Assembly: GCF_001557235.1 (NCBI RefSeq)
Contig: NZ_LSJI01000063.1
Span: 1-8,006 of the forward strand
DNA length: 8,006 bases
Origin: Phenylobacterium sp. CCH9-H3
Lineage (GTDB): Bacteria; Pseudomonadota; Alphaproteobacteria; Caulobacterales; Caulobacteraceae
Reading direction: 5' to 3'
The number at the start of each line of letters is the position of its first letter. Positions within the stretch are counted from its first letter, which is position 1. A program made the position numbers and the translations under genes. Below the pieces are notes generated by a model. It was not told the origin of the DNA. It did no database searches and worked only from the letters and a program-made list of their open reading frames with translations. Positions 2,886-7,413 of the stretch are shown here, in pieces.

Positions 2886-4172
2886 TCAGACGAAGTTGTC
2901 GGCCGAGATGTCGGCGAGCGAGCGGCCGACCAGGACGGTGATGCTGTGGATCGTGGCGCCCGCGCTGGCGTCGGCGAAGACGACCACGTCCTGGCCCACC
3001 TGGATTGCCATGGCCTCGGTCTGGCCAACGCCGATCTCCGCCTGGGCCGTGGAGAGCGCCGTGGCGAAGTCGGCCGCCGTCCCCTCGGCAAACGCGGTAC
3101 CGATGTCGGTGCGGAGTTGAATGCGGTCGGCGGACGTCCAGTCGCCGATGCGATCGGCGGCCACAAGGGTGAGCGAGGCGGTGGCGCCGTCCTGAATGAA
3201 CGTGTCGGCGCCGCTGCCGCCGTTCAGGCTGTCGGCGCCCGTCCCGCCCCGGATGCGATCGTCGGCGTCGCTCGCCTGAACGGTGTCGTCGCCGGCGCCG
3301 CCGTCGATGGTGGCGCCGTACAGGACAGGGCTGCCGAGGTTGCGGATGATGTGGATCACGTCGGCGCCGTCGCCCCCGTCAAGCTGGCTGCGCATGTCGG
3401 TATGGGCCCTGAGCGTGTCGTTTCCGCCGTCGCCCGAGGCGACGTGCAGGCCCGAGCCGGTCGTACCGATCTGAATGGTGTCGTCGCCATCGCCGCCCCT
3501 GGCGGTCGTATCGCCGTCGCCGGAGGTGGAGATGATGTCGTTCCCGCCCTCGCCGAACAGTTGGCCGCCGCCCGTCAACTGATCGTCGCCCAGATTGCCG
3601 TTGATGAAGTCCTGGCCGGCCGTTCCGTAGATCAGGTCGTTCCCCTGGCCGCCCAGGACGGTGTCGGCGCCGTCGCCGCCCTGGAGTGTGTCGTTCCCCT
3701 TGTTGCCCTGGATGAACTGGCTCGCGCTGACCGCGCCCCCGATGGCGGCGATGTTGTCGGCGCCCTGGCCGCCGTAGACCGTGTTGGGGCTCTGGGTGCG
3801 GATGACGATGCGGTCGTCGCCCTGGTTTCCCTGCACGAACCACGCGCCGGGGCTGCTCGTCAGGGTGTCCGCGCCGTCGCCACCGTACATCGCGCCAGTG
3901 GACGGAAGCACGCCCTCGTCGCGGCTGTCCGGCCCTGAGCCGCCCACGAAGAGCCGGGAGCCGTCGGGAAAGGTCAGCCGACTGAGGGTGGCGGGGAAAT
4001 AGGAGCCGAACACCACCGTCCGCTCGCCCATGGTGACCGAGAACGTGCCGTCCGGATTGTAGAGGACGGTGGTGGTCTTGGCCGAGCTGCCGGCCGGCGT
4101 GATCAGGCTGTCGACGCTGCCGAAAGCCAGCGCCTCGGCCGCGCCGATGGTCTCGAACGCATAGGTGGCCAT
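2886..4172 (-). CDS. RTX-type calcium-binding secreted protein, short paralogue
   Basis: This 428-aa product is a paralogue of the 540-aa RTX protein downstream. The shared N-terminal domain spans about residues 1-78 (ATYAFETI, GERTVVFG, DGSRLFVG). The repeat core (about 96-323) alternates GGxGxDxhx nonapeptides with segments FVQGNQGDD (112-120), FIQGNKGND (153-161) and FINGNLGDD (189-197). The C-terminal domain has DWTSADRI (344-351) and ends LVGRSLADISADNFV. No signal peptide is present; calcium-dependent folding after type I export is inferred from the class. The ATG at 4172 is chosen over a further in-frame start at 4223, because GGGGG lies 5 nt upstream and the protein then begins exactly like its paralogue. 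The upstream 17 residues are not homologous. It is first of the tandem pair and divergent from the VTT-domain gene. Confidence 0.92.
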   Translation of the reverse strand: MATYAFETIGAAEALAFGSVDSLITPAGSSAKTTTVLYNPDGTFSVTMGERTVVFGSYFPATLSRLTFPDGSRLFVGGSGPDSRDEGVLPSTGAMYGGDGADTLTSSPGAWFVQGNQGDDRIVIRTQSPNTVYGGQGADNIAAIGGAVSASQFIQGNKGNDTLQGGDGADTVLGGQGNDLIYGTAGQDFINGNLGDDQLTGGGQLFGEGGNDIISTSGDGDTTARGGDGDDTIQIGTTGSGLHVASGDGGNDTLRAHTDMRSQLDGGDGADVIHIIRNLGSPVLYGATIDGGAGDDTVQASDADDRIRGGTGADSLNGGSGADTFIQDGATASLTLVAADRIGDWTSADRIQLRTDIGTAFAEGTAADFATALSTAQAEIGVGQTEAMAIQVGQDVVVFADASAGATIHSITVLVGRSLADISADNFV

Positions 4173-4206
4173 CTTGTCCCCCTTGGACCGCGCGGCCACA
4201 AGCGAA

Positions 4207-4238
4207 GGACGCGCACCGAACAACCTCTACTTTAGCGC
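4207..4238 (-). promoter_or_regulatory. Conserved upstream block of the short RTX gene
   Basis: This is the counterpart of the block upstream of the long RTX gene, with the core GTAGAGGTTGTT (4230 to 4219) ending 47 nt before the ATG. The preceding GCGCTAAAG resembles an alphaproteobacterial -10 (GCTANAWC-like), but no good -35 is seen at proper spacing, so the promoter reading is tentative. It lies in the 133-bp divergent gap with the VTT-domain gene. Confidence 0.45.
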
Positions 4239-5016: not shown

Positions 5017-5627
5017 AGCTCTTCTATTCGCCGGGCTCGTGCTCGCTGGCCTCGCACATCGCGCTGGAGGAGGCGGGGGCGGCCTACGAGGCCGTCAAGG
5101 TGGACCTGCGCCGGTCGGAGCAGCGCAGGCCGGAATATCTGGCGCTCAATCCGAAGGGGCGGGTCCCGGCGCTCGTCACCGACAAGGGCGTGCTCACCGA
5201 GACCGTGGCGATCCTGGCCTATGTGGCCCAGACACATCCCCAGAAGGCGTTGCTGCCGACCGACCCCTGGGACCTGGCCCAGGCGCAGGCGTTCAACAGC
5301 TACCTGGCCTCCACGGTCCACGTGGCCCACGCGCACCGTTTCCGCGGCTCCCGCTGGGCGGACGAGGAGAGCTCGTTCGAGGACATGCGCCGCAAGGTCC
5401 CGCAGGCCATGGCGGAGGCCTTCGCGCTGATCGAGCGCGAGATGCTGCGAGGTCCGTGGGTGCTGGGCGAGCGGTTCAGCGTCTGCGACGGCTACCTGTT
5501 CACGCTGGCCGACTGGCTGGAGGGCGACGGGGTCGACCTGGCCCAGCTTCCGCGGGTCCACGCCCATCGCGAGCGGGTGCGGGCGCGGCCGGCGGTCAGC
5601 AAGGTTCTTGCCGAAGAGGCGGCTTAA
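5010..5627 (+). CDS. Glutathione S-transferase, beta-class-like
   Basis: This is a complete 205-aa soluble GST. The thioredoxin-fold N-terminal domain (1-80) begins MLKLFYSPGSCSLASH, with Cys11 matching the beta-class catalytic cysteine seen in E. coli GstA. NPKGRVPAL (47-55) supplies the cis-proline and backbone glutathione contacts, and Glu64-Thr65 (ETVAI) replaces the usual Glu-Ser gamma-glutamyl contact. The helical domain (about 88-200) includes the N-capping box Ser157-Val-Cys-Asp160 followed by GYLFTLADW. It probably conjugates glutathione to electrophiles or reduces disulfides; the true substrate is unknown. The ATG at 5010 has GGCGAGG just upstream, within the end of the VTT gene, and the two genes overlap by 7 nt, so they form an operon. 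Confidence 0.95.
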   Translation: MLKLFYSPGSCSLASHIALEEAGAAYEAVKVDLRRSEQRRPEYLALNPKGRVPALVTDKGVLTETVAILAYVAQTHPQKALLPTDPWDLAQAQAFNSYLASTVHVAHAHRFRGSRWADEESSFEDMRRKVPQAMAEAFALIEREMLRGPWVLGERFSVCDGYLFTLADWLEGDGVDLAQLPRVHAHRERVRARPAVSKVLAEEAA

Positions 5628-5665
5628 GGCCGCGCGGCGCGCAAGTTGCTTGCGGCGAAGCGGCC
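5628..5665 (+). terminator. Candidate stem-loop terminator after the GST gene
   Basis: Directly after the GST stop, GGCCGC (5628-5633) pairs with GCGGCC (5660-5665). Inside it CGCAAG (5640-5645) pairs with CTTGCG (5649-5654). Only ATTT follows, so it is a weak intrinsic terminator at best; it might alternatively lie in the leuA promoter region. Confidence 0.35.
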
Positions 5666-5685
5666 ATTTCGGTACAGACCCCGCC

Positions 5686-5754
5686 ATGCGCACGCGGACG
5701 GGCAGCCTGCTTCTTCTCTCGCTGGGGCTTAGCCGCCCCTGGGCGCCTCTCTAG
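5686..5754 (+). CDS. Leucine-rich leader peptide of leuA (leuL-type)
   Basis: This is a 22-codon ORF (ATG 5686 to TAG 5752) in the leuA 5' region, 78 nt before the leuA start. It contains SLLLLSLGL: four consecutive Leu codons (CTG CTT CTT CTC, 5707-5718), two more at 5722-5724 and 5728-5730, and a seventh as the last sense codon. In the classic leu attenuator of enterobacteria, a leader peptide with four consecutive Leu codons senses charged tRNA-Leu by ribosome stalling, and this arrangement is the same. Three of the seven Leu codons are CTT, which is essentially absent from leuA itself, where CTG and CTC are used, so stalling on scarce tRNA would be favoured. No Shine-Dalgarno sequence is visible before the ATG; alphaproteobacterial leaders can begin directly at their AUG. 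The peptide probably has no function of its own. Confidence 0.75.
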   Translation: MRTRTGSLLLLSLGLSRPWAPL

Positions 5755-5832
5755 GCACGCGCTTTTTCGCGGCCGGGCGACCAGGGGTTTCATCCTCCGT
5801 CCCCAGAACGAAACACCGCGAAGAGACCGAAC
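5724..5832 (+). promoter_or_regulatory. Putative leucine attenuator before leuA
   Basis: This leader RNA can fold in mutually exclusive ways. Fold A pairs GGGGC (5724-5728) with GCCCC (5735-5739). Fold B pairs GCGC (5743-5746) with GCGC (5759-5762) directly before T5 (5763-5767), like a short intrinsic terminator. Fold C pairs 5736-5748 with 5775-5787, about 12 pairs with one mismatch, including CCCCTGG with CCAGGGG, and excludes A and B. A ribosome stalled on the Leu run would cover the left arm of A and favour C, allowing readthrough. The exact terminator is uncertain, because C is also followed by a short TTT. The leuA ribosome site (AAGAGA, 5821-5826) is partly complementary to TCTCT (5748-5752), so translational control is an alternative. 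Confidence 0.55.
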
Positions 5833-7413
5833 ATGACCAACCCCACACCCGCGAACGCCGATACGTCGGGCCGCGACCGCATCATCGTTTTCGACACCAC
5901 CATGCGCGACGGCGAGCAGTCGCCCGGCGCCTCCATGTCGCATGACGAGAAGCTGGAGCTGGCCAAGATCCTCGAAGACATGAAGGTCGACGTGATCGAG
6001 GCCGGCTTCCCGATCGCCTCGAACGGCGACTTCGAGGCCGTCCGCGCCATCTCCGAGATCGTGACCGAGAGCGTGGTCTGTGGCCTGGCCCGGGCCGGCA
6101 TGGCCGACATCGAGCGCTGCGCCGAGGCGATCCGCAAGGCCAAGCGCGGCCGGATCCACACCTTCCTGTCCACCAGCCCCAGCCACCGCGACCACATCCT
6201 GCACGCCAGCCAGGAAGACATCCTGGAGATGATCACCAAGTCGGTGACCCACGCGCGCAACCTCTGCGGGGACGTGGAGTGGTCGGCCCAGGACGCCACG
6301 CGCACCGAGCAGGACTTCCTGCGCCGCTGCGTGGACGCGGCCATCAAGGCGGGCGCCACGACGATCAACCTGCCGGACACGGTGGGCTACAGCTATCCCA
6401 GCGAATATGCGGAGATGTTCCGCGACATCATCCAGAACGTGGAGAACGCCGACCGGGCGATCTTCTCCACCCACTGCCACAACGACCTGGGGCTGGCGGT
6501 GGCCAACAGCCTGGCCGGCGTCCAGGGCGGCGCGCGGCAGGTCGAGGTGGCGGTCAACGGCATCGGCGAGCGGGCCGGCAACGCGGCGCTGGAAGAGATC
6601 GTCATGGCCCTGCGGGTCCGCGGCGACACGCTGCCCTACTTCACCGGCATCGAGACCCAGCACATCACCCGGGCCAGCCGCTACGTCTCGGCGATCACCG
6701 GCTTCCCGGTGCAGTTCAACAAGGCCATCGTCGGCAAGAACGCCTTCGCCCACGAGAGCGGCATCCACCAGGACGGGATGCTGAAGGACCGCGGCACCTA
6801 CGAGATCATGCAGCCCGAGGACGTGGGGCAGGGCTCCTCGAACCTGGTGATGGGCAAGCACTCGGGCCGCCACGCCTTCCGCGAGAAGCTGAAGGACCTG
6901 GGCTATGAGCTGGGCCAGAACGCGCTGAACGAGGCGTTCCAGCGGTTCAAGGACCTGGCCGACAAGAAGAAGCACGTCTTCGACGACGACATCATCGCCC
7001 TGGTGGACGACGCCCTGGCGAGCAGCGCCGACAAGGTCCAGGTGAAGCACCTGCGGGTGATCGCCGGCACCGAGGGGCCGCAGGAGGCCTTCCTGACGGT
7101 GACCATCGACGGGGTCGAGAAGAGCGCCAACGCCACCGGCGACGGCCCGGTGGACGCGGTGTTCAACGCCATCCACGCGGTGGTGCCGCACGACGCGATC
7201 CTGCGCCTCTTCCAGGTGCACGCGGTGACCGAGGGCACGGACGCCCAGGCCCAGGTCTCGGTTCGGCTGGAGGACGACGGCCGCATCGCCACGGGTTCGG
7301 CCGCGGACACGGACACCCTGACCGCCTCGGCCAAGGCCTATGTGAACGCGCTCAACAACCTCTTCGCCCGCAAGGAGAAGAGCGCGCCGGGCAAGGTCGC
7401 CAGCGGGTTCTGA
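5833..7413 (+). CDS. leuA: 2-isopropylmalate synthase
   Basis: LeuA condenses acetyl-CoA with 2-oxoisovalerate to 2-isopropylmalate, the committed step of leucine synthesis in the cytoplasm. The 526 aa are typical of the long form. The TIM-barrel HMGL-like domain starts with [13 protein letters not shown] (20-32), holding the metal-binding Asp21 and the catalytic Arg25. His214 and His216 in THCHND are metal ligands, and [14 protein letters not shown] follows at 242-255. The [10 protein letters not shown] segment and GKHSGRHAF (341-349) lie in the linker subdomains. From about residue 400 comes the C-terminal leucine-binding allosteric domain (LRVIAGTEG, then [12 protein letters not shown] near 436-447), so feedback inhibition by leucine is expected. 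The ATG at 5833 has AAGAGA 6 nt upstream. The gene is apparently single, preceded by the leucine leader; no other leu genes are in the window. Confidence 0.97.

Follow-up and report, generated by a model that had tools for sequence, protein, structure and literature searches.

A short leucine-rich open reading frame and a conserved, predicted RNA hairpin precede leuA in a Phenylobacterium genome, and together they likely act as a ribosome-sensing leucine attenuator, in which stalling on Leu codons would switch the fold of the downstream mRNA and turn enzyme output up or down. The DNA analysed, called the window below, is an 8,006-nt stretch from Phenylobacterium sp. CCH9-H3. In sequence comparisons across the class, the reading frame, its Leu codons and the pairing of the two hairpin strands, A and B, are conserved and tied to leuA. 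We place high confidence in the leucine-sensing half of this model and moderate confidence in its predicted translational output in Caulobacterales. The features are collected in Table 1.

Table 1. Coordinates of the leader, the RNA element and their surroundings in the window
Feature	Position	Strand	Basis
Promoter-like boxes CTTGCGG (5649-5655) and GGTACA (5671-5676)	5649..5676	+	Fixed spacing before leader ATG
Leucine leader ORF, MRTRTGSLLLLSLGLSRPWAPL then stop	5686..5754	+	Sequence; conservation in related leuA loci
Run of four Leu codons CTG CTT CTT CTC, presumed stalling site	5707..5718	+	Sequence; leader CTT bias
Possible strand 1, CTGGGG; can pair with A in Caulobacteraceae, not general	5722..5727	+	By eye
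Whole RNA element by model R2	5725..5787	+	57.5 bits; window belongs to the R2 training set
Near-invariant CTTA, the in-frame Leu codon CTT plus A	5728..5731	+	Alignment A3
Strand A (2) of conserved hairpin; overlaps leader Pro-Trp-Ala-Pro codons	5736..5747	+	Covariation
Strand C, TTTTTCGCGG, complementary to CCGCGAAGAGA at the leuA ribosome-binding region	5763..5772	+	Sequence complementarity
Strand B (3) of conserved hairpin, GGGCGACCAGGGG	5775..5787	+	Covariation
Strand D (4), CCGCGAAGAGA, leuA ribosome-binding region, predicted to be masked by C	5816..5826	+	Duplex and swap tests
leuA, 2-isopropylmalate synthase, 526 aa	5833..7413	+	NCBIfam TIGR00973

The first-pass annotation of the window had proposed a leucine leader peptide of 22 codons, seven of them Leu and four of these in a run, lying 78 nt before leuA, and the sequence bears out each particular: the ORF runs from ATG 5686 to TAG 5752-5754 with 22 sense codons, seven for Leu, and 78 nt separate its stop from the leuA ATG at 5833. 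Three of its Leu codons are CTT, which had been described as rare in leuA. This also holds, the window's own leuA using 28 CTG, five CTC and no CTT, and CTT amounting to 1.2% of leuA Leu codons over 80 loci. None of 20000 dinucleotide shuffles of 5628-5832 contained an ORF of 12-45 aa that begins with ATG and has four Leu codons in a row. The LeuA of the window scores 675.8 bits against NCBIfam TIGR00973 (cut-off 598.7). A GST-like gene lies upstream of the leader and leuA and the next gene downstream encodes an EamA-type transporter, with no further leu gene, in agreement with the single leuA that had been claimed. The genome had been guessed to be Caulobacterales, and it is indeed a Phenylobacterium relative: the closest record, a Phenylobacterium sp. 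MAG (L071), encodes an identical LeuA with somewhat different leader DNA. Elsewhere in the window, two adjacent minus-strand proteins (1151-2773 and 2886-4223) carry RTX calcium-binding nonapeptide repeats (PF00353) and are unrelated to the leader.

We collected 80 leuA loci by protein similarity, 78 of them with at least 170 nt of upstream DNA. In 77 of the 78, an ORF that opens with ATG and holds four or more Leu codons runs in frame through the CTTA core in the same place, the sole miss being L067. Loss of the leader in relatives had been set beforehand as a result that would count against it; at sequence level the ATG, the Leu codons and the stop are all kept, and the proposal of a leucine leader peptide before leuA is supported. 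The C, T and A of the CTTA core are invariant in alignment A3 and its third base is kept in at least 90%, in loci partly picked by the CTTA motif. Within the order, 200 genomes gave 174 LeuA matches; of 80 upstream regions picked from these, 58 have a leader by the same strict criteria, and five more (L131, L158, L159, L164, L165) have variant leaders by eye. Some genomes of the first 80 loci recur in this order sample, and the non-redundant loci number 73 of 136. Leu runs are short in some leaders, such as that of Caulobacter vibrioides, MTVTRDLLSLRLISPWAL.

Several loci depart from the common arrangement. A 2-nt loss in Phenylobacterium sp. J367 (L009) shifts the leader frame, and the ORF runs on into the leuA start, so that this locus offers a natural experiment in losing the leader stop. 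In one Caulobacterales group (L121-L123, L125-L127, L129) the leader frame, counted from the nearest ATG, stays open over 54 to 63 codons and its N-terminal part is conserved (...DFAS.LRVGQEIAAAQYDLAQRAG...LLISPWARKSR); this may be either an extended leader or a small protein that ends in a leader-like tail. By eye, leuA seems to follow an ilvH-like gene in L132, L136 and L140, where a different short ORF, Leu-rich in L140, overlaps or abuts the leuA start.

The promoter-like boxes stand at a fixed distance from the leader ATG: among 45 Caulobacteraceae-like representatives, (C/G)TTGC is found at -38..-36 of the ATG in 43 and xxTANA at -16..-14 in 23. A scan with the sigma-70 consensus found no site. 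A leuA transcript starting beyond 5754 had been the other result set to count against the leader; the boxes lie before the leader ATG, and a transcript starting from them would include it. Since the second box ends about 9 nt before the ATG, we predict that the leader is probably translated from the mRNA 5' end, the transcript starting at the ATG or a few nt before it and the leader thus being leaderless or nearly so.

On comparative evidence, a co-varying and conserved RNA hairpin, absent from the first-pass annotation, is also part of the element. In alignment A3 (38 sequences), 97.9% of A:B cells are paired against 92.0% after shuffling, and A:B covariation is 0.322 against 0.191, a value matched by none of 500 shuffles and by no slide, with kinship ignored in both comparisons. 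Cells changed on both sides of the helix number 18 in A3, compared with 3.4 when shuffled, and every slide is far worse. Across 78 Caulobacterales, position 5 is U-A, C-G, A-U or U-G in 100% (88% with permuted partners) and position 8 is paired in 90% (59% permuted); positions 9 to 11 pair no better than permuted partners. A tree-simulated covariation scan of 89 Caulobacteraceae-like sequences returned zero pairs at E<0.5, and co-substitution counts among Caulobacteraceae-like loci are weak. The tree-aware tests are without a significant pair because strands A, B and C hardly vary in these loci.

Such a core, nearly invariant in Caulobacteraceae-like loci beyond the needs of pairing, would suit a hairpin that serves as the binding site of a trans-acting regulator or sRNA, with leader translation merely gating it. 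We consider this very improbable, as changes in the strand bases compensate one another across the class, and the invariance can be explained by strands that each have more than one pairing partner. A further reading takes the conserved end of the leader (LSRP-stop or LSRPWA) as a nascent peptide that arrests the ribosome through its amino-acid sequence, and L-x-x-P residues do recur class-wide, often right before the stop. However, amino-acid variation (S/T/I/M, then R/G/S/C/N) falls at positions where the RNA also varies, and positions with a constant helix keep their residues. Trp is replaced by Arg with a compensating change in B in L056, L119, L120, L134, L135 and L166, Pro is replaced by Leu, with CCTCTGAGCG opposite CGCTCAGAGG, in L230, L234, L244 and L258, and a wobble pair is kept at the same Pro to Leu site in L231 and L237-L240. 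Residues thus track the RNA helix, which argues for selection on the RNA and not on the peptide, and leaves arrest with hardly any likelihood.

We used covariance models to follow the element through the class. Model R1 (29 sequences, E<=0.01) matched 22 of 240 evenly drawn Alphaproteobacteria, all 22 directly upstream of a LeuA homologue. Model R2 was built from 38 sequences, with class loci found by R1 added, and was applied in the class at E<=0.001. This single model finds the element in about a quarter of Alphaproteobacteria drawn in the same way (63/240, one match per genome), and when all 63 were checked, 62 lay directly upstream of leuA, the exception being L295. That specificity for leuA makes the model usable as an annotation rule for an overlooked small ORF. 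Named carriers by R2 are Methylobacterium bullatum (E=3e-9) and Phaeobacter inhibens (E=4e-5), and the leader is unlisted as a CDS in the annotated plasmid records of Paracoccus ferrooxidans and Phaeobacter inhibens (PLSDB tables being incomplete). As judged by these matches, the leader is found through the class and is not peculiar to the Phenylobacterium genome, so its spread had been understated. An impression of a narrow element would have come from a search with the exact 15-base core, which matched 9 of 385 class genomes, only the query's own resembling a leuA leader by eye; the covariance model showed otherwise.

In 349 Pseudomonadota, R2 gave 62 matches at E<=0.01, of which 55 precede LeuA (30/30 and 25/32), the class and phylum draws sharing some genomes. 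The seven phylum matches without leuA are L243 (E 3e-5) and L249 and L251-L255 (E 0.0016 to 0.01). From 69 loci outside the Caulobacterales sample, 60 were kept, some of which may themselves belong to Caulobacterales, the orders of the class and phylum genomes not being given. Eight of those dropped have LeuA with the element pattern unmatched (L214, L220, L233, L241, L242, L245, L247, L257), and L243 was dropped with leuA not within reach. At L257:720-990, in Paracoccus ferrooxidans, a look-alike leader ending RGLLLLTLR-stop can be seen by eye, which R2 missed; its stop codon lies in a possible hairpin strand, CTGAGCGG with CCGCTCAG, and the CCCC/GGGG part is absent. At ten loci outside the Caulobacterales sample (L194, L201, L206, L209, L225, L226, L229, L232, L236, L246), LeuA is only about 25% identical to the common bacterial, or first, kind. 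This second kind is TIGR00970 in the two tested, so that leader and hairpin precede both TIGR00973 and TIGR00970 enzymes, and at six of the 25 phylum loci LeuA is weak against the first kind and 67-77% identical to the second. An element placed before two distant kinds of LeuA hints that a regulatory leader can outlast its enzyme.

The reading frame was examined in 58 loci outside the Caulobacterales sample (56 found via RNA models, two plasmid loci via LeuA) and in 40 further model matches. Over the 12 codons that precede CTT, the frame of this codon is free of stops in 58/58 and 40/40 (98/98, 96 of them model-found), compared with 43/58 and 52/58, and 29/40 and 32/40, for the other two frames. 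The CTT frame holds 4.22 Leu per 12 codons in the 58 loci and 3.73 in the 40, the other frames at most 1.12; a small part of this result is built in, since CTTA and the codon preceding it are included in the models. In 53 of the 58 loci the ORF stops four codons past CTT, and the stop codon lies inside strand A in 55 of the 60 loci kept outside the Caulobacterales sample. Leader Leu codons in the 73 non-redundant Caulobacterales comprise CTT 130, CTG 119, CTC 57, TTG 21, CTA 18 and TTA 6, so that CTT makes up 37% of them against 1.2% of 2786 Leu codons in leuA (80 loci). The 12 codons before CTT in the 58 other loci contain CTT 102, CTC 71, CTG 53, CTA 14, TTG 4 and TTA 1. This bias towards CTT, and elsewhere towards CTT and CTC, suggests that the sensor reads the charging of the tRNA-Leu with anticodon GAG, which we take to be the reader of CTT/CTC-type Leu codons.

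In the attenuator that we propose, scarcity of charged Leu-tRNA would halt the ribosome on the four-Leu run, leaving strand A free to pair with B. With Leu-tRNA plentiful, the ribosome would reach the stop codon and cover A, and the 3' side of the element (C and B) would be freed to pair with the sequence between the hairpin and leuA. The predicted partner in Caulobacterales is the leuA ribosome-binding region, so the off state would there block translation initiation.

Support for this partner comes from complementarity and from exchanges between species. By eye, C in Caulobacteraceae, CTTCGCGG, stands opposite D, CCGCGAAG, at the leuA ribosome-binding region, with matched changes in L055 (GTCGCGG/CCGCGAC) and L072 (CGTCG/CGACG) and with the match absent in some loci, for example L013 and L066. 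The duplex energy of strand 3 with the spacer is better than that of shuffles at p<0.05 in 15 of 73 loci (Fisher 2e-14, kinship ignored), these being 13 of 46 Caulobacteraceae-like and 2 of 27 others. When strand 3 was swapped among species, its pairing with its own leuA -34..-1 was better by 1.3-1.4 kcal/mol, again with kinship ignored (p=0.0002 for n=44 Caulobacteraceae-like and p=0.0072 for n=22 other Caulobacterales, 66 of the 73 representatives being used). A first run over 71 loci and the same region had given p=0.0004 and 0.015. Swap controls on leuA codons, on the stretch upstream of the leader ATG and on the reversed region gave p from 0.17 to 0.94. Co-adaptation to the ribosome-binding site was absent in 52 loci outside the Caulobacterales sample (p=0.69), and the stretch right after B in the same loci gave p=0.06. 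The window's own strand 3 fits its own region no better than those of others (residual 0.0).

We then modelled the fold of the mRNA in two ribosome states: stalled, with the run's first Leu codon in the A site and the ribosome covering 12 nt, or with the stop codon in the A site. In the stalled state strand A is free in 131/131 loci, and 7 or more of the 10 A:B pairs form in 43 of 71 Caulobacterales and 46 of 60 others. In the stop state B pairs downstream with more than 2 pairs above the stalled state in 55/71 and 35/60, and the reverse is never seen. If the last Leu codon is taken as the stall site, strand 3 is predicted to pair less with the leuA region in 60 of 72 loci and more in 7. Averaged modelled accessibility of leuA -20..-1 in the stop and stalled states was 0.56 vs 0.56 in Caulobacterales and 0.58 vs 0.54 elsewhere, with no rise upon stalling, and an earlier calculation over leuA -16..-3 gave no gain over controls (mean change 0.03 between stop and stall, 0.05 shuffled). 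Pairing of strand 3 with leuA in the stop state was 9.9 against 9.0 for shuffled spacers (p=0.08). Shuffled spacers thus come close to the real ones in pairing, and part of the predicted switch follows from composition.

The first-pass annotation had likened the element to enterobacterial leuL, where the ribosome on the leader decides whether an antiterminator or a Rho-independent terminator forms ahead of leuA. Of this comparison, the short ORF just before leuA with its successive Leu codons stands; the mechanism is unsupported, for a U-tract terminator is absent. The logic of Leu codons is shared and that of exclusive hairpins would be, strands 1, 2 and 3 can be drawn by eye in Caulobacteraceae, and the Caulobacter ilvBN leader offers a precedent, being described as a case of leuL-type transcription attenuation (PMC4117421). 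However, the 9 nt that follow B contain 5 or more T in just 3/73 Caulobacterales and 1/60 others, an 8-nt stretch with 6 or more T is present somewhere between B and leuA in 4/60 loci outside the Caulobacterales sample, and a scan of window 5550-5900 found no terminator-like site. A terminator role for the A:B hairpin was itself rejected for want of U. We judge leuL-type attenuation distinctly unlikely here.

The same absence of an intrinsic terminator would agree with Rho-dependent attenuation, in which the mRNA between hairpin and leuA loads Rho after leader translation and the stalled ribosome or the A:B helix hinders loading. The Caulobacterales spacer is C-rich and G-poor (C 0.37, G 0.19), which counts in favour of this reading, but elsewhere the spacer has C 0.30 and G 0.27, its C below that of leuA's own first codons (0.34), and C-richness is also explained by pairing with the G-rich strand 3. 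We regard Rho-dependent control as unlikely, and prefer, for Caulobacterales, attenuation that probably acts through the leuA ribosome-binding region. More tentatively, and with somewhat more doubt than belief, we suggest that the element may be an unnamed class-wide switch, in which an often leaderless leader senses the charging of one tRNA-Leu isoacceptor, controls leuA through masking of the ribosome-binding site and not through a terminator, and has been kept where a distant LeuA type replaced the enzyme.

As a candidate new RNA family, the element offers a testable case of amino-acid attenuation that lacks a terminator. An Rfam search of the window returned nothing at the element and one sub-threshold chance match elsewhere. 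In seven related loci, Rfam 15 gave a tRNA and four sub-threshold matches, none of them a leucine leader; one of these, at 21.8 bits to an unrelated family, overlaps the element on the minus strand of L228. The literature searched gave no description of a leuA leader in Alphaproteobacteria, an earlier mention being possible in supplements, in subscription papers or in the 2004 work of Vitreschak et al., which reportedly deals with attenuators in proteobacteria.

Control of leucine synthesis by a leader peptide is textbook knowledge in enterobacteria. The leuL leader shares with the present element a run of Leu codons in a short ORF before leuA and hairpins that would be mutually exclusive. The Alphaproteobacterial element differs in having no intrinsic terminator, so that the enterobacterial mechanism is not supported, and in being followed by a single leuA; its co-varying hairpin holds the leader 3' end or stop codon inside the 5' strand, and the loci searched gave no Rfam family there. 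The erm leaders and the Bacillus rtpA leader are translational attenuators, in which a stalled leader ribosome frees a downstream ribosome-binding site, as it would here. Our leader, however, would respond to the charging of Leu-tRNA, and support for masking of the leuA site is confined to Caulobacterales.

The actinobacterial LEU element likewise has a Leu-codon ORF before leuA, no obvious terminator and a base stem involving the leuA Shine-Dalgarno box (Seliverstov et al. 2005, PMC1262725). In that element the Shine-Dalgarno box has the Leu codons as its pairing partner, a pseudoknot was proposed and the authors favoured a protein-binding site (PMC1262725), whereas here the conserved helix and the predicted masking strand are both downstream of the Leu run. 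The cysS motif uORFC-8-2 of Rhodobacterales is, like this element, an Alphaproteobacterial uORF with regulatory codons and conserved RNA structure; it precedes cysS and is described with an intrinsic terminator, and the main text of its source is without the word leuA (PMC8632094), whereas the present element precedes leuA and has no intrinsic terminator. Finally, the trpL of Sinorhizobium meliloti is a leaderless leader that forms a tryptophan attenuator before trpE (PMC10117765). The leader described here would resemble it in lying at the extreme 5' end of its mRNA, as we predict, and differs from it in being a leucine leader before leuA.
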